From: Marine Group III euryarchaeote CG-Bathy1
GTDB lineage: Archaea; Thermoplasmatota; Poseidoniia; MGIII; CG-Epi1
Assembly (NCBI GenBank): GCA_001875425.1
Contig: MIYU01000003.1
Location: 1-35,415, forward strand
Length of the DNA stretch: 35,415 bases
Direction of reading: 5' to 3'
The notes beneath the pieces were generated by a model. The model made no database searches. It worked only from the letters and a program-made list of their open reading frames with translations, and was not told the origin of the DNA. Shown piece by piece: positions 21,947-30,508 of the stretch (position 1 is its first letter; each line of letters begins with the position of its first letter). The translations under genes and the position numbers were made by a program.

Positions 21947-22666
21947 TTAGTCTTTCTTGGTACCCAAGAAATATTCATTGATTTGGGGATCAACCAATAT
22001 TTCACTAGCTGGTGCAGTATGGACTACTTTCCCATTAGAAAAGATATATCCTCTATCGGAACGGGATAATGATAATCTGGCGTTCTGCTCAACAATCAGA
22101 ACTGTTATCCCCTTCGCCCTAAGTGCATCAATCCGCTCTATTATCTGTTGCTGGTAAAGGGGACTAAGAGCTGCAGTGGGCTCGTCAAGTAGAAGGAAAT
22201 CGGGATCATTGATTAGAGCTCGGCTAATTGCTAACATCTGTCTTTGGCCTCCAGACAAAGAAGCTGCCACATCATTCATTCTAGGCCTCAGATCCTCGAA
22301 CATATCCAGAGCCCTATCTATACGAGATTCAAGAAGTGGGGTAGGAAGACTGATTCCACCCATCTCCAGATTTTCTCTAACTGATAGGCTTGGAAAAACA
22401 TTGTCTACCTGAGGAACATAGGCAATTCCACGGTTCACTAGAGAATCTGTACGCCATCCCGAAACTTCTTGCCCTTTGTGTTTTACACTACCCTTGTAAT
22501 ATGTAGCAATACCGAAGATAAGCTTAATGAATGTTGATTTTCCACATCCATTTGGACCTATTACTGTCACAAACTCACCCTCATCAACATAAAGATCCAC
22601 GCCATTCATAATCTGAACCTTATCATATCCTCCCTCAAGTCCAGATACATCTAGGACACGGGTCAT
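21947..22666 (-). CDS. livF: Branched-chain amino-acid ABC transporter ATPase LivF
   Basis: 239 residues. Walker A GPNGCGKST at 37-45, ABC signature LSGGQ at 137-141, Walker B FLLLDEP at 157-163, and the downstream VLIVEQNARLSL switch-His region replaced in the family by a Gln-containing EQN, as is normal for LivF. It powers the importer with LivG. Its ATG overlaps the livG stop by 4 bases (ATGA). Confidence 0.93.
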   Translation of the reverse strand: MTRVLDVSGLEGGYDKVQIMNGVDLYVDEGEFVTVIGPNGCGKSTFIKLIFGIATYYKGSVKHKGQEVSGWRTDSLVNRGIAYVPQVDNVFPSLSVRENLEMGGISLPTPLLESRIDRALDMFEDLRPRMNDVAASLSGGQRQMLAISRALINDPDFLLLDEPTAALSPLYQQQIIERIDALRAKGITVLIVEQNARLSLSRSDRGYIFSNGKVVHTAPASEILVDPQINEYFLGTKKD

Positions 22667-23430
22667 GCCGCGGCCCCCAGATAGGCCTCAATCACTTCTT
22701 TGCTATCTTTAACCTCATCAGGTGTTCCTTGCATCAACACCTTTCCCTGATCCATTACGATTATACGGTCAACTCCTCTCCTGAGAATGAAATCCATATT
22801 GTGTTCTATAACAAATATCGAAATCCCTTTCTTCGACACAATACTACGTAGATTATTGAAAATCTTTTCAGCTAATGGCCCTGCTACACCTGCAACTGGT
22901 TCATCAAGAAGCAAAAGGTCAGGTTCACCCATAAGCGCCCTTCCGATATCAACCAGCTTACTCTGACCTCCAGACAACTCACTGGTAAGATTGTGGGCCA
23001 TATGGCTAATCTCTAATTCAGCAAGTGTATCATAGGCTTTGACAAGCCTTTCTCTCTCTTCATCCCTAAAGAAATAGGACATTATGGCCGTTAAAGGATT
23101 GTCTCCAAACTGATTTCGGGGTGGTATCAATAGGTTCTCAATAGTCGTCATTTCTCTCCAGAGACGGGTATGCTGAAACGTACGCGTCAAACCTAACTTC
23201 TGAATCTCATCTGGTCTTAGAACTGTGGCATTTTTCTCAAATACCTCAACTTCTCCTTTACTGGGTTCGAGAAGACCCGAAATACAATTGAACGTTGTTG
23301 TTTTTCCGCAACCATTAGGACCTATCAATCCAACAAACTCCCCTTTACCAACCTCAAAAGATACATTGTCAATTGCACGTAAACCTCCAAAATCCTTGGT
23401 TAAATCAGTAACTTTGAGGACTGAAGACAC
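22663..23430 (-). CDS. livG: Branched-chain amino-acid ABC transporter ATPase LivG
   Basis: 255 residues, GTG start at 23430. Walker A GPNGCGKTT at 37-45, LSGGQ at 152-156, Walker B LLLLDEP at 172-178 followed by the family's AG motif (PVAGVAG), and the switch region FVIEHNMDFI. The TRTFQHTRLWREMTTIENL segment is typical of LivG. The start overlaps the permease stop by one base. LivF and LivG presumably form the ATPase pair under the fused permease. Confidence 0.93.
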   Translation of the reverse strand: MSSVLKVTDLTKDFGGLRAIDNVSFEVGKGEFVGLIGPNGCGKTTTFNCISGLLEPSKGEVEVFEKNATVLRPDEIQKLGLTRTFQHTRLWREMTTIENLLIPPRNQFGDNPLTAIMSYFFRDEERERLVKAYDTLAELEISHMAHNLTSELSGGQSKLVDIGRALMGEPDLLLLDEPVAGVAGPLAEKIFNNLRSIVSKKGISIFVIEHNMDFILRRGVDRIIVMDQGKVLMQGTPDEVKDSKEVIEAYLGAAA

Positions 23431-26400
23431 TATTTTCGCCTCCCTTTGAAATCGACTTTCTCGGCATTATCCTGAGAAGAAGAATGCGAACTAGGGTTTT
23501 CTGGTCTTTTAGGAACCTCGGGCAACAATCCTTTCTCGGAAAGCATTAAACTAACCAAAATTACAAGCCCAATCATTACCAATTTAAGATAAACCAAATT
23601 CATCCTTAGATCATCTGGATTACCTAATGTCTCAGTTATAGATAAATCACTGGTCACGCTCCCAATCACATCCAAAATAAGCCAAGCAAAGAATTCATCA
23701 ATTCCTGCAACACTATCATGAAATTGATTGTCTATATCTCCTCTAGCAAGAGGCAGCAAATTGAATAGAAATTCTGTCAAGACTATGATAAATGCACCTA
23801 TGACCATCCCTCTATTATTGGCCCGTCCACCGACAATAAAAGCGGCCCAGATAAGGAATGTGGATTTGACGGGGCTAATAAAATCGTCCAATACACTCAT
23901 ATTTAACCAAGCCCAGAGGCCTCCGCCAAAACCTGCAATGGCACCACCTACCGCCAGACTCATTGCCTTATGCTGGAATACATTGTGACCATGATGCATA
24001 GTGACATCTTCGTCCTCTCTTATAGCGCGCAGAATCCGTCCCCAGGGAGAATTTAACATCCTTTCAGCTAGAGTCCAGACCAAGAAAAACGATAGCAAGG
24101 CTATTGCAGCAAGCAATACTGTGTAAGGAGCTGCCTCTGTCTGATGGGGATCAAGATGGACTAAATTGAGCCACTCACCAACGGAGTCGTCCATTGTTGA
24201 TACCCACCAGTGTTCCAGCGGTAAGTCATACAATTGGATTCCTATTGCAGTTGTTCCTGTACCAGCTCTAAGAAGTGGTTCGGCCCTCATAGAAATTCTT
24301 ACAATCTCACCTAAAGAGATTGTCACAATTGCAAAATAATCCATACGGAGACGTGCTGTTGGATAAGCAAGAAGCCAACCTGCAATACCAGAAACAATAA
24401 CAGCTGCAAGGATTCCTGAGGTAAAGTCACCATTGAAAATTCCAAAGATAGGTGACCATCCCTGACCTCCAGGTCTATCTTCTGGAACTGTCAGAATACC
24501 CATAGTTATAGCTCCAATTCCAGCAAAGAAAATGACTCCGAAATTTGTCATTCCCGTTATTCCAGTATGTAGGTTCAAGGAGAAGGCCAGAATTGAAAAG
24601 GCACAAACCAAAACAATTATTCTTGATATCTGCATTGATTTTGTAAAATTGGTTACACTCGGCAACCACCAAGCAACGTATATCAGTAGCACTAGGAAAA
24701 AAGCAAATGTAACCCATGAACCACGTTCACTAGAACGTCCATATTGTGCCTTAGAAGGAGGCATTATTGCATTCCAGAGAACACTTTGCAAACGTCCAGC
24801 CTTCTCTGAAACAAAATCTGTAAACGGATTGATCGAATATAAAATGAAGAAAAAACCAAGCATCTTGATCTGACCAAAAGGAACGTAAAGAAACAATATA
24901 ATACCAAAAAGAAAGACATATGGATTTATGTTCGTTAAAACGCCTTCTTTGAGATTACTGAAAGATTCATTATGGTCAATTTCATCCAGCACACGGGATG
25001 GAATACTAAATATGAAAAGACGTACATCATTAAAACTCAATATCAAAAAGAGATAAGCAATCTCTTTCACATACATTTTGGACTCTGTATCCCTCACCAA
25101 ACCCGGCTCTATCATATCCTCAAAGTACAGTAATAATCCTCCTATCAAAACGAATACTAGATTAAGCCGATGATCTATCTCTGCTTTCGATTTAATAACT
25201 GTAAAGAGCGTAGCGGCAACTCCCAGAAGAAGGAATACCAGATACACTAAATCGATTATGTAATAAATAACACCAGAACCTGAAGTTACCACATCCAAGT
25301 AATAGACAAAATAAGTGAACAATATACACCCATAAAGAGTACCCCATTTCTGTATCTCAGGAAGTGCCTTCAATTTCGTACCAAGGTCGTTGAATAAACT
25401 CATTAATTTAGATCTTGACAAAAATAACGTGATTACCACTAGAACAAGGCCGAATATTTGTAAAAGCAAAAATATTACATCTATGAGGTAATAAATAGTT
25501 CCACTACCTGCAACAAGATAATCTGCCCCATATGAAACAAAACTCACTAGGAATCCTGAAACTAAGAGTTGCATCCGTTGTCTATATTTTCCTTCCTTCT
25601 CTTCTAAGGACAACGCCCTTGCGGGGGCGATGATTTTGTTGAGTTCGGGAATAAGTGAAACAGTTGATGAATACAGCGTAATTATACCCACTAGACTCAA
25701 CAAGAAGAATACATAATCGACAAGAAGATAAGCTATACCTATACCAGACGTAAGACCATCAAGTATACTAACAACCGTGATTTGAAATAAAGCTGCTACG
25801 AAGATTGACAATTTCTGTGACGAACTAAATCTACGAAGTTGATCACCTACATATGGTAATTCAGGTAGGGACGGTAGTGTATTCGAAGATCCAACCTTAA
25901 TGTGACTCAAAAGGTAGAACCAGAAAATTATTATACCCCATAAAATTAGTCCAAACACAAAAGTGGATTTCCATATACATATTATTAGCAATGTGAAGAG
26001 AGAGACATTCCTAAGACTGAAAATCGAACCTTGCCTATTTCGTGCTCGTTCAATCTGCCAGTTCTCCAATGCGTCTCCAAGACCCTTTGGCATAATCATC
26101 AATACAGCTATCAAGAACATGTAGGGCATTGCCTCTCCAAAAGCTGCATAAGATGGACGATCCAATACACTACCCGTACCAATCAGTATAGGTTCAGAAA
26201 TAGAGCGGACCAAACCAACAATAATTGCTGCAATCAAAACTCCTCTGACAGAACCAAGAGTACCAAGTACAATAACTGAAAATGCTGGTAGAAGTATGCT
26301 AAGACCTACCTCTGGATTTACACGCACATACATTCCAAATAGTACACCGCCGAATCCAGATATTCCTGCAGCTAGGAATGCACAAGTCATATGCACGCGT

Positions 26401-27575
26401 TCGACATTAATTCCAGAAGAAGCTGCAAGATCAGGATTGTCTGCTACTGCGCGCATCTGACGACCTAGACGGGTCATATTGAGCACAATTAGTAACAAAA
26501 CTACAGACGCAAAGACTCCAATAATCAGTGCAGCTTTGGTGTATTGTAAGTAATATGTTGATTCTTGAATCTCATAAAAAGGCAAATACTCAGTAACATT
26601 ACATATTTCAGACTCGACATCCCAGCTGGATGAAAAATTATCTGGTTTCCCCTCCTCTATACAAGCTGTCTTATCCATATCATCATGACTTTTTTCAACC
26701 GTTCTCTCACCAAAACGGAACCTAGCAGTCTGACTCAAACTACTGGGCCACCACCATTTGTCCCCTGGAAATTCATGTCTGGATGTGGACAAACGCCAAT
26801 CTATGTCTGGAACAAACAAATACTGACTTGCCCCATACCTAAGGTATAAAATCCCACGAAGAATCATAGCAACACCCAAAGATGCGATCATCATCGCCTG
26901 GGGAAGAGCACGATTCTTTCGAAATCGGCTATAGATCAGACGATCGATTAAAACACCCAGAAGACCTGTCAAAACAAATCCCGTTACGCATGCCCAGAAT
27001 AGAAGGTCCCAAGTCAAAACCTCGTCTTTGGAAACATCTATATTCAGAACCTGCTTGTCATTTACTAATGTATAGAAAAAGGGACTCCACATCATAGTAA
27101 AGCCCACATAGGCTCCGAACAACATAATTTCAGCCTGTGCAAAATTACCAAAACGCTGAACCTTGTATGTCAAAGTCAGACCTGCAGCTATGGCCAAATA
27201 TGCTGCCCCCCAGTAAAAACCACTAAAAAGTGTGGATGCCAAATTAAATGTGGTCGATGCGGTGCTTCCTTGTCCAACAAATAATTGTTCCAGACAGAAT
27301 GCAAAAATAAGTAAAATTAATATCGGAGACGAAACGAAAGCAATTGTTCTGAACCAGCCTTGTAAGTTGTTCAACAACCAGTGAAGAATATACATACTGG
27401 AGAGGACATACTCAAAGAATTGAAGAATCCAAAGTGGATCACCATGGATTAACAGCGAGAATATGCCTGAATCATAACGAAGCCCAAAGGAGGCATCAAA
27501 AAATGCAAGAAAAGCAAATTTCAATCCTACAGGGATGGAATCCCAGCTATCTCTAGTTAATGCTAATCTACTCAA
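23430..27575 (-). CDS. Fused LivH-LivM ABC permease with central membrane repeat block
   Basis: 1381 residues, TTG start at 27575 with GAGGT 4 bases upstream. Order: an N-terminal extension with hydrophobic segments (1-105), a LivH-type permease (about 110-505, with QMRAVADNPDLAASSGINVERV and LGTLGSVRGV), a central membrane region (about 515-960), a LivM-type permease (about 980-1340, with LRAIREDEDVTMHHGHNVFQHK), and a charged tail. LivH and LivM are normally separate proteins of about 300-400 residues. The LivH half carries a hydrophilic insert (257-345) with C305 and C325, probably extracellular. The central block holds at least three repeats around D606, D685 and D761. It imports branched-chain or similar amino acids with the gene's neighbours. 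Confidence 0.87.
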   Translation of the reverse strand: MSRLALTRDSWDSIPVGLKFAFLAFFDASFGLRYDSGIFSLLIHGDPLWILQFFEYVLSSMYILHWLLNNLQGWFRTIAFVSSPILILLIFAFCLEQLFVGQGSTASTTFNLASTLFSGFYWGAAYLAIAAGLTLTYKVQRFGNFAQAEIMLFGAYVGFTMMWSPFFYTLVNDKQVLNIDVSKDEVLTWDLLFWACVTGFVLTGLLGVLIDRLIYSRFRKNRALPQAMMIASLGVAMILRGILYLRYGASQYLFVPDIDWRLSTSRHEFPGDKWWWPSSLSQTARFRFGERTVEKSHDDMDKTACIEEGKPDNFSSSWDVESEICNVTEYLPFYEIQESTYYLQYTKAALIIGVFASVVLLLIVLNMTRLGRQMRAVADNPDLAASSGINVERVHMTCAFLAAGISGFGGVLFGMYVRVNPEVGLSILLPAFSVIVLGTLGSVRGVLIAAIIVGLVRSISEPILIGTGSVLDRPSYAAFGEAMPYMFLIAVLMIMPKGLGDALENWQIERARNRQGSIFSLRNVSLFTLLIICIWKSTFVFGLILWGIIIFWFYLLSHIKVGSSNTLPSLPELPYVGDQLRRFSSSQKLSIFVAALFQITVVSILDGLTSGIGIAYLLVDYVFFLLSLVGIITLYSSTVSLIPELNKIIAPARALSLEEKEGKYRQRMQLLVSGFLVSFVSYGADYLVAGSGTIYYLIDVIFLLLQIFGLVLVVITLFLSRSKLMSLFNDLGTKLKALPEIQKWGTLYGCILFTYFVYYLDVVTSGSGVIYYIIDLVYLVFLLLGVAATLFTVIKSKAEIDHRLNLVFVLIGGLLLYFEDMIEPGLVRDTESKMYVKEIAYLFLILSFNDVRLFIFSIPSRVLDEIDHNESFSNLKEGVLTNINPYVFLFGIILFLYVPFGQIKMLGFFFILYSINPFTDFVSEKAGRLQSVLWNAIMPPSKAQYGRSSERGSWVTFAFFLVLLIYVAWWLPSVTNFTKSMQISRIIVLVCAFSILAFSLNLHTGITGMTNFGVIFFAGIGAITMGILTVPEDRPGGQGWSPIFGIFNGDFTSGILAAVIVSGIAGWLLAYPTARLRMDYFAIVTISLGEIVRISMRAEPLLRAGTGTTAIGIQLYDLPLEHWWVSTMDDSVGEWLNLVHLDPHQTEAAPYTVLLAAIALLSFFLVWTLAERMLNSPWGRILRAIREDEDVTMHHGHNVFQHKAMSLAVGGAIAGFGGGLWAWLNMSVLDDFISPVKSTFLIWAAFIVGGRANNRGMVIGAFIIVLTEFLFNLLPLARGDIDNQFHDSVAGIDEFFAWLILDVIGSVTSDLSITETLGNPDDLRMNLVYLKLVMIGLVILVSLMLSEKGLLPEVPKRPENPSSHSSSQDNAEKVDFKGRRK
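25176..25814 (-). repeat. Triplicated membrane module inside the fused permease
   Basis: Residues about 588-800 hold three similar units with period about 76-79: VSILDGLTSGIGIAYLLVDYVF, SYGADYLVAGSGTIYYLIDVIF and YYLDVVTSGSGVIYYIIDLVYL in their cores (shown here as short pieces). Each has a helix, an Asp-containing turn, Gly-Ser-Gly, then a Tyr-Tyr-Leu/Ile-Ile-Asp helix. A fainter fourth unit (LYFEDMIEPG) starts near residue 816. The units are recognisable at the protein level only; the DNA has diverged. Confidence 0.65.
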
Positions 27576-27699
27576 AGCTACCTCTGAACGATAGTGTACC
27601 AGCAGGGGCTCCTATAACTGCCAACCCCCAAACCAGGGCGGCCGGCTCAATGGCGACCGCCCCTTTTTGCTTAGGAGTTCTTTCTCAGACAGATTTGAC
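27576..27699. other. Intergenic spacer with GC-rich hairpin between binding protein and permease
   Basis: 124 bases. GGGCGG at 27636-27641 pairs with CCGCCC at 27657-27662, and CTTTTTG follows on the plus strand. In the direction of liv transcription the hairpin is preceded rather than followed by the A/T run, so it is not a standard intrinsic terminator for these genes; it could protect or process the binding-protein mRNA 3' end and so lower permease expression. The ribosome-binding GAGGT lies at the permease end (27580-27584). Confidence 0.4.
27636..27669 (+). terminator. GC-rich stem-loop followed by T-run, plus strand
   Basis: Stem GGGCGG/CCGCCC with a 15-base loop, then CTTTTTG. The only long-stranded reading with T's after the stem is the plus strand, on which no gene lies. 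It could stop antisense transcription into the binding-protein gene. Archaeal terminators are often simple T-runs, so the hairpin may instead work on the minus-strand message. Confidence 0.35.
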
Positions 27700-30477
27700 T
27701 TAGAGTCTTCTGCGGAGAATTAGTACTACACTAAGTGCAGCAACGGCTGACAATAGACCGAATCCAGGTACCTCATCCTCTTCTTCCACAACTGGTTCTG
27801 GTTCTGGTTCTGGCTCTGGTTCTGGCTCTGGTTCAGCGGTTAGAACACTACAGAAGCCTATGTCGAAGTCTTCTGCTTCATCTGCGAAGCCTTCTGAAGC
27901 ACACCACCATGTGTAGGTTGGGTCTTCTTCAGTACCCTCTGCAAGGAAAAAGTCACAGCCTTCGTCGTCATTTGCGGCACAGAAGTCAAGTACAATAGTT
28001 CCGCATGCTGCACCATCTGCTTCAGACTCTGAGTCTTCACTACAAGGTGCGCCTTCCTCTTCCTGTTCTGCACAGAGAGCTATTCCTGCCTCGGTATAGA
28101 ATGGACAGAATTCCTCATTCTGAGGTATGCCGCCATCAGTAAGGCCATCAAACAGGCCCCATGAACTGTGACAATCCAATGTTGCATTGCCTGCATCATC
28201 AACGCCAAAGGTACATATGTCAAATCCGGAACCGGCTACATCTCCATTCTCGTCAAATATGTGGACTCCACTAGCACCTAGTTGAGGTGTGGCAGGTCCA
28301 GCTACGGTCAAACCGAGCATTTCCTTTACGCCATCATCTACTGGTGTTAGGTAAGCAGTTGCTTGAGCAAGTCCAATGATTGCAACAGCATCAAAGGTTT
28401 CTCTGGTGTAGATTCCACCCTCATATCCTGCTGCCGCAGCTGCTCCTCCATAGATTGCATCAAATAGCATAGACAAAGATGAATCTGCACCTGATGCGGG
28501 CTTGGTTGCGGTGATTCCGCTTATTGCACTGATATCAGTGAATGCATTACCAAAACTAACATCTGCAATTCCATCGCCACCGAAGATGGCAACTTCAAGT
28601 CCCTGTGTTGCGATCTCTTCAGCTATGGCTGCTCCATCTGAAGCATAAGTAATCATGACCACTGAGTCACAGCCGTTATCAGCAACTGCTGCTACCTGTG
28701 ATGTGAAATCTGTAGCGTCGTCATCATAGGTTGACTCTACACATACATCTCCATCCCAGTTGTCCAAGAAAGCTCCGTGGAAACCTGCACCGTAATCATT
28801 GGTCATTGCAATGACCGCTGGATATTCATATCCAGATGCCGCGTAAGCATCTGCAAGTGCCTGTCCCTGCTGAGCATCGCTTGGTACGACTCTGAAAAGG
28901 TAACCATCATCATCGTAGTTGGTTATAGCTGGCGAGGTAGAAGCGTAGGATACCATTGGTACTCCTGCTGCCTTAGCGACCTCAATAGCTCCAAGAGTTG
29001 CTCCTGAACATGCTGCTCCTGCAATACCAACAACTCCAGCATCAATCAGAGACTGAGCTCCAGTTGCTGCCGTTGTTCCGTCACAACCTGAATCTGCTAT
29101 TGTAACAGAGAACTGGAAGTTAAGTGGTTGGATTGTATTCATGTATCCTATTGCGACATTCGCTGCAATAGTGAATCCCGGAGCATAAACTGCAATTGGT
29201 CCTGTGATTGGACTCAATACACCTATGTTGATAGGTGCTGCACCTGGGAAAGATAATGAAGTACCAAAGTGACCATTACATGCCAAGTTTAGACTTGGCT
29301 GGCCGTCCACTATAACTGGATTGAATTGACAGACATCATAACCTGAACCTGCAACATCTCCAACAGCATCAAATGTATGAACTCCACTGGCACCTTGGTA
29401 GCCACTACCAACGGCTGCAATATCGTCCCTTAGATCACCATCTGTATCCTGCATTGCTGCCAGACCGATCATAGTTACTGCATCATAGGTCTCATGGATG
29501 TAAATTGCACTGGCATTACGCTCTTCTGCTTCCCAAGCTGCATCAAATGCGGCTTTAGCGTCACTATCTGAACCTGCTGCAGGTTTGGTAGCAATTACTG
29601 TAGCTGCTGCACTTGCATCCGAGAATTCCGCAAGGAAACCCATGTCAGCAATACCATCTGCACCCATAACTGGGAATGGACAGCCTGAAGAACATACTGG
29701 GGAAGTTGCCCCCTCTACGCCCTGTGTAGCCATCTCTTCCAAGAGGGCTGCACCATCTGTAGCATAAGTGACCATGATTAAGCTGTCACATCCTGCATCA
29801 GCTAATGCTGTAACTTGGGATGAGAAGTCCGTGTTATCCTGATCATATCCAATGTCGACACACATAGCGTCTACACCTGCAGCTGCATATGCTCCCTTAA
29901 CTACGTCAGCTAGACCAGCTCCATAGTCATTGGTCATATAGATTATTCCAGGGTTCTGCCATCCATGAGCTGCTGCCATAGAAGCCATTGCCATACCCTG
30001 CTGGGCATCGCTTGGAACCACACGGAAAAAGTAACCGTCATCATCCACAACAGTCAAAGCTGGTGAAGTTGAGGCGTAAGATACCATTACCGTAGAAGCT
30101 GTCTTAGCTACTTCCAGAGCACCAAGAGTTGCTCCTGAACATGCTGCTCCAGCTATACCTACGACTCCTGAACCTACTAATGAATCAGCTGCCGTTGCGG
30201 CCGTTGTTCCGTCGCAACCTGAATCACCCTCAACCAAGGAGAAAGTATGGGTATCTTGACCAGCATTAAGGTCAGCTATAGCCATTTCTGCTGAATCCGT
30301 AAAGGCTTCAGCATAGACTGCTATTGGACCTGTTATCGGGTTCAATAATCCTATCTTAACTTCAACTGGATCGTCTGCCGCTGCATTAGCGACTGGACCT
30401 ACACCAAATAGAGGCGTCATTACTGAGGCCAATATGGCAAAAGCCACTGCTAGCGTTAATATCTTGCTTGATTTCAT
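27700..30477 (-). CDS. Double-headed LivJ-type substrate-binding protein with PGF-CTERM anchor
   Basis: 925 residues from ATG 30477; an ATG at 30483 is in frame, but GAGGTG at 30487-30492 is 9 bases from the former and 3 from the latter. Residue numbers here count from 30483. A signal peptide ends near VANA (34). Two Peripla_BP_6 domains follow (42-405 and 417-775), sharing near-identical stretches such as GPIAVYA, DSGCDGTTAAT, VVGIAGAACSGATLGA, VSYASTSPA and FRVVPSDAQQG. Then a Cys-rich stalk (790-880, eight Cys), a PEPE repeat (884-897), VPGFGLL, a short hydrophobic stretch and RRR, the PGF-CTERM signal cut by archaeosortase. It captures substrate outside the cell for the fused permease. 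Confidence 0.9.
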   Translation of the reverse strand: MKSSKILTLAVAFAILASVMTPLFGVGPVANAAADDPVEVKIGLLNPITGPIAVYAEAFTDSAEMAIADLNAGQDTHTFSLVEGDSGCDGTTAATAADSLVGSGVVGIAGAACSGATLGALEVAKTASTVMVSYASTSPALTVVDDDGYFFRVVPSDAQQGMAMASMAAAHGWQNPGIIYMTNDYGAGLADVVKGAYAAAGVDAMCVDIGYDQDNTDFSSQVTALADAGCDSLIMVTYATDGAALLEEMATQGVEGATSPVCSSGCPFPVMGADGIADMGFLAEFSDASAAATVIATKPAAGSDSDAKAAFDAAWEAEERNASAIYIHETYDAVTMIGLAAMQDTDGDLRDDIAAVGSGYQGASGVHTFDAVGDVAGSGYDVCQFNPVIVDGQPSLNLACNGHFGTSLSFPGAAPINIGVLSPITGPIAVYAPGFTIAANVAIGYMNTIQPLNFQFSVTIADSGCDGTTAATGAQSLIDAGVVGIAGAACSGATLGAIEVAKAAGVPMVSYASTSPAITNYDDDGYLFRVVPSDAQQGQALADAYAASGYEYPAVIAMTNDYGAGFHGAFLDNWDGDVCVESTYDDDATDFTSQVAAVADNGCDSVVMITYASDGAAIAEEIATQGLEVAIFGGDGIADVSFGNAFTDISAISGITATKPASGADSSLSMLFDAIYGGAAAAAGYEGGIYTRETFDAVAIIGLAQATAYLTPVDDGVKEMLGLTVAGPATPQLGASGVHIFDENGDVAGSGFDICTFGVDDAGNATLDCHSSWGLFDGLTDGGIPQNEEFCPFYTEAGIALCAEQEEEGAPCSEDSESEADGAACGTIVLDFCAANDDEGCDFFLAEGTEEDPTYTWWCASEGFADEAEDFDIGFCSVLTAEPEPEPEPEPEPEPVVEEEDEVPGFGLLSAVAALSVVLILRRRL
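27790..27834 (-). repeat. Hexanucleotide repeat coding the Pro-Glu stalk
   Basis: A run of GGTTCT/GGCTCT hexamers (plus strand) encodes seven Pro-Glu pairs ahead of the PGF-CTERM signal. It is a slippage-prone tract where copy number could change stalk length without a frameshift. Such proline-acidic stalks commonly precede cell-surface anchors. Confidence 0.75.
28159..30360 (-). repeat. Two tandem copies of the substrate-binding domain (intragenic duplication)
   Basis: Copy 1 spans about 29269-30360 and copy 2 about 28159-29235. They share long identical protein stretches, including VVGIAGAACSGATLGA and FRVVPSDAQQG, and many identical DNA words. The region C-terminal to these is more diverged. 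The high identity in the N-lobe could reflect recent duplication or gene conversion. Confidence 0.85.
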
Positions 30478-30508
30478 AAGCATTCACACCTCGCCGTCAT
30501 TGCCGGGG

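Follow-up and report, generated by a model that had tools for sequence, protein, structure and literature searches.

Fused permease and its operon

The described systems closest to the locus analysed here are the LIV-I/HAAT importers, whose permeases LivH and LivM share with it halves of the PF02653 (BPD_transp_2) family, LivF- and LivG-type ATPases as neighbours, and a Peripla_BP_6 binding protein. The window, a stretch of 35,415 nucleotides from the Marine Group III euryarchaeote CG-Bathy1 (contig MIYU01000003.1), differs from LIV-I/HAAT in that the two halves are fused, carry an N-terminal extension, and are separated by a 430-residue linker with about 12 transmembrane (TM) segments. Uncultured marine archaea have here rebuilt a textbook amino-acid importer into a single polypeptide whose membrane linkers are interchangeable, and a literature search found no paper on this LivH-LivM fusion or its linker.

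Two stretches of the 1381-residue open reading frame match PF02653 (E = 6.9e-56; residues ~116-492 and 983-1269), and the frame is therefore a fused LivH-LivM-type permease of Marine Group III archaea (Table 1). Two ABC ATPase genes lie downstream of it and a Peripla_BP_6 binding-protein gene lies upstream. The permease misses the curated NCBIfam cut-offs for the LivH and LivM models (NF008011, 68 vs 379 bits; NF008450, 90.6 vs 366 bits), and also resembles UrtB/UrtC at a sub-threshold level. The operon is predicted to encode an ABC importer of the branched-chain-amino-acid type, with branched-chain amino acids as putative substrates.

The binding protein consists of two halves in internal tandem duplication, which are 51% identical. 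A GC-rich hairpin lies between its stop and the permease start (window 27634-27663, minus strand), and a hairpin of different sequence is present at the equivalent site between the binding-protein and permease genes of five relatives (L002-L006), which suggests a conserved mid-operon RNA element. In the related genome G019 (L047, 3588-6935), the open frame is ~100 residues longer upstream and apparently adds two more hydrophobic segments.

Table 1. Features of the importer operon and of the linker within the fused permease, with positions in the window.
Feature	Position	Strand	Details
LivF-type ABC ATPase	21947..22666	-	
LivG-type ABC ATPase	22663..23430	-	ABC_tran + BCA_ABC_TP_C
Fused LivH-linker-LivM permease	23430..27575	-	1381 aa, TTG start; both halves match PF02653
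LivM half	23433..24740	-	Residues 946-1381; PF02653 match at 23769-24629
R5, final linker hairpin	24810..24923	-	Residues 885-922
R4, hairpin	25002..25169	-	Residues 803-858; acidic turn (FEDMIEPG...YVKE); hhalign 0.3-1.2% vs R1-R3, not significant
R3, repeat unit 3	25188..25352	-	Residues 742-796 (D761, G766, G768, Y771, D775); missing in two-repeat relatives
R2, repeat unit 2	25413..25580	-	Residues 666-721 (D685, G690, G692, Y695, D699)
R1, repeat unit 1	25650..25817	-	Residues 587-642 (D606, G611, G613, Y616, D620)
R0, linker hairpin	25908..26027	-	Residues 517-556; no detectable kinship to R1-R3; missing in two-repeat relatives
LivH half	26031..27260	-	Residues 106-515; PF02653 match at 26100-27230
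N-terminal extension	27261..27575	-	Residues 1-105; ~3 likely TM segments, from alignment and relatives
Substrate-binding protein	27700..30483	-	Two tandem Peripla_BP_6 domains; C-terminal PGF-CTERM-like anchor

Three related hairpins in the linker

The linker between the LivH and LivM halves comprises ~430 residues (residues ~516-945; window 24741-26030). The preliminary description had placed the inserted block at 25176-25814, but the block is about twice as long. As that description had noted, the block contains no permease motif: both PF02653 matches fall outside it, and neither PF02653 nor any other permease profile matches inside the window linker.

The triplicated hydrophobic module that had been proposed between the two halves was confirmed by self-comparison. 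In an ungapped comparison of residues 501-970 with themselves, R2/R3 scored 87, R1/R3 67 and R1/R2 65, against 38 for the best of 30 shuffles and 27 for the next best real offset. Profile-profile comparison of the unit families, using profiles from orthologues, returned probabilities of 97.3% for R1-R2, 97.7% for R1-R3 and 95.6% for R2-R3. Comparisons involving the remaining hairpins of this protein (R0, R4, R5 or the N-terminal one) reached only 0.1-7.3%, and hydrophobicity alone therefore cannot account for the match among R1-R3. These hairpins were considered as further diverged copies and rejected, as profile support is absent. At least three units of about 77 residues had been described; exactly three are detectable, and the conserved unit measures ~56 residues, with spacings of 79 and 76 residues because the cytoplasmic loops vary.

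The aspartates D606, D685 and D761 lie where they had been placed, and a GxG turn and a Y-x3-D helix come after each of them. These aspartates open the motif D-x4-G-x-G-x2-Y-x3-D, which is invariant in 18 of 18 units from seven genomes (unit positions D20, G25, G27, Y30 and D34), and paralogous units are ~25-30% identical outside these residues. As a register control, the number of invariant columns shared by the three paralogue groups was counted; it exceeded two at none of 2915 other offsets and is five in the true register. By these sequence comparisons, R1-R3 are homologous predicted helical hairpins, duplicated from one unit, and constitute a TM-hairpin repeat that had no name before and is marked by five strictly conserved residues.

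Hydropathy indicates paired helices and a short turn in each unit, with the first helix of R2 and the second helix of R5 falling below threshold but being clear from the sequence. The turns of R1-R3 contain 0-1 K/R residues in every relative, and the inter-hairpin loops mostly contain 2-7, apart from one loop of the two-repeat forms with 0-1. Under the positive-inside rule, this charge bias therefore predicts that the motif faces outward, a topology drawn from hydropathy and charge. AlphaFold models R1-R3 as three helical hairpins turning at GxG, at a pLDDT of 52 and a pTM of 0.41 that leave the packing unusable; the model of the whole linker (pLDDT 45) is too poor for interpretation.

The earlier statement that the block belongs to no recognisable family stands, as Pfam, NCBIfam and PDB gave no credible match for the linker hairpins, and a PDB sequence search with the linker profile gave no match up to E 10. 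The R1 region of two-repeat relatives matches NEMP (PF10225) below threshold (E 6.6e-5 to 0.012; best 23.1 bits vs a gathering cut-off of 28.7). This match spans one hairpin and its flank, is confined to the relatives and does not extend to the window protein, and probably reflects hydrophobic composition.

Distribution and history of the linker

The repeat linker is present in 7 of 21 genomes of the family, the window's own included, and always within the fused permease. Three-unit forms are found in the window, G019, G011 and G014, and two-unit forms in G007, G015 and G017, as well as in L003 from another collection. A search for stand-alone homologues, which the preliminary description had proposed, was unsuccessful at every level: every match in 340 class genomes is a fused permease, the other matches in 390 phylum genomes are fragments with E>0.001, no stand-alone unit was found in viral contigs, and a scan of genome collections gave fused permeases only. 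The repeat unit is specific to this lineage.

Two records with the linker carry doubtful labels. G297:C101, which belongs to a genome from a different family within the class, equals G014:C59 in linker profile score and frame length, and one of the two bins is probably contaminated or misassigned. L003 (NZXJ01000078.1) is labelled Candidatus Neomarinimicrobiota but bears a Marine Group III fused permease, and is probably mislabelled or misbinned. In the fused permeases of L002, L003, L004, L005 and L006, an outer loop of the LivH half has an insertion of acidic DxNGxGxxD-like repeats that resemble calcium-binding ones; such repeats are present in G011 and the two-repeat clade and absent from the window, G019 and G014.

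PF02653 proteins of 1020-1335 residues also occur across Marine Group II with conserved fusion order and N-terminal extension, and both the fusion and the extension are found throughout the class, in Marine Groups II and III alike. Other fused permeases of the Poseidoniia share these features and alignable halves with the window protein, but have a short or TM2-like linker, without D-GxG-Y-D units or a profile match to them. Across the class, the site between the halves is occupied by linkers that are unrelated to one another and measure 159-443 residues, and the halves remain alignable. The description of the block as inserted is therefore only partly apt: the linker of this clade is longer and different, but a linker is present at this site in every related fused permease of the class that was read.

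In Marine Group II and in the Marine Group III genomes without repeats, the linkers measure 159-304 residues and are of two kinds: short (G002 and G040), with one hairpin, or TM2-like, marked by a Trp-Pro helix and a stretch of the GxxGxHxFxxxRxxRG type. The TM2 domain (PF05154) is likewise a two-helix hairpin, and the sister-clade linkers match it weakly (E 0.004-0.07, below cut-off). R1-R3 match neither TM2 by Pfam nor the TM2-like linkers of the sister clades by profile, and a derivation of the R units from those linkers was rejected on the latter ground. The fused permeases of most Marine Group II genomes read (L088-L102) have a TM2-like linker together with a variable outer segment, and the site between the halves thereby hosts another type of linker, unrelated to the first.

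In a phylogenetic tree of the permease core, the repeat-linker proteins form one clade (93%), with G002 as sister (100%) followed by G040 (99%), and the two-unit forms are nested beside the window (98%). In a tree of the units, the R1s group together (99%), as do the R3s (94%) and the R2s of both forms (94%), and the two-unit clade has therefore most likely lost R3 and R0. A tree of the linker contradicts the core tree, in that the window and G019 group with G014, apart from G011 and the two-unit forms (99-100%). This conflict may reflect exchange of linkers between lineages or misleading long branches.

For the two-unit clade, dN/dS values are 0.13-0.39 in the linker and 0.01-0.09 in the permease halves, so the linker is under purifying selection, though a much weaker one than the transport core. 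Close pairs give linker values of 0.23-0.39, and values for single units are based on few changes.

Possible roles of the linker

The preliminary description had offered a scaffold, a gate or an ancillary channel as the function of the module. Of these, a scaffold is best supported, given the unrelated linkers in sister clades and the much faster evolution than in the permease, and gate and channel lack positive support. We favour, at a probability of roughly 60%, a multi-hairpin membrane linker, specific to this lineage, that joins LivH and LivM covalently and most likely serves as a scaffold or tether beside the permease core. Such a linker would hold the halves together, so that synthesis is 1:1 and the cytoplasmic ends of both come to lie on the correct side. 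Its six hairpins (12 TM segments) would place every turn outside, and the whole would pack alongside the core and outside the substrate path. R1-R3 arose by duplication of one D-x4-G-x-G-x2-Y-x3-D unit, with the motif predicted at the outer face. Since unrelated linkers occupy the site while the halves remain alignable, the repeat linker is dispensable for basic transport chemistry, and the nested two-unit clade supports tolerance of unit number; together with the weaker constraint, this fits a tether or scaffold. The scaffold role and the position beside the core are proposals, and both AlphaFold models are too poor to locate the linker against the permease. The repeat linker is an accessory feature of one lineage, and a putative binding or regulatory role would be the surprising part.

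Five invariant residues per unit exceed the needs of a bare spacer and speak for a more specific role, either as a structural latch, in which a Gly turn makes Asp/Tyr contacts, or as a putative ligand site. It is possible, though clearly less probable than the tether, that the outward paired Asp and GxG turn form a site for a cation (Ca2+/Mg2+/Na+) or for docking of the binding protein, and so tune activity or recruit that protein. The invariance of D/G/G/Y/D in all 18 units, the predicted position of the turns on the binding-protein side, and the acidic DxNGxG-type repeats in the outer LivH loop of several module-bearing relatives are consistent with such a site. However, no ion-site family was matched, unrelated linkers replace the module in sister clades, and relatives lacking the module have tandem binding-protein domains as well, which leaves no exclusive co-occurrence. 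In a more speculative extension, the site between the halves would be a socket, common to the whole class, into which different accessory membrane domains can be exchanged, and R1-R3 would be a new domain of acidic hairpins that regulates the importer from within by binding an ion or a partner.

The elevated linker dN/dS in close pairs, the loss of a unit in one clade and the wholesale swapping of linkers between clades would also be expected of neutral membrane filler that was duplicated and kept by drift, with selection only for an even number of TM segments. This reading is improbable, because dN/dS is well under 1 and the five-residue motif is invariant over paralogues and species. That the module is a gate or ancillary channel of separate origin, fused into the importer, is very unlikely: the linker is hydrophobic and, like some channels, has TM hairpins that are repeated and carry conserved acidic residues, but no channel or transporter family was matched, no stand-alone copy was found in the 390 phylum genomes, and the unit number is three or two. 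The genome is a draft assembly, and the architecture could in principle be an assembly chimera or frame accident, but the same open-frame architecture recurs in further genomes from this family and in L003, and these relatives refute that explanation, leaving it a negligible chance.

Among Marine Group III genomes, tandem binding-protein domains at first seemed a promising explanation of why the linker exists, but this idea was rejected, as Marine Group II genomes without repeats have double or longer binding proteins (821 aa in G040, 754 in G036, 768 in G023 and 1026-1237 in five others). Across the class, the binding protein has one, two or apparently more domains (frames of 395 to 1237 aa), independent of linker type.
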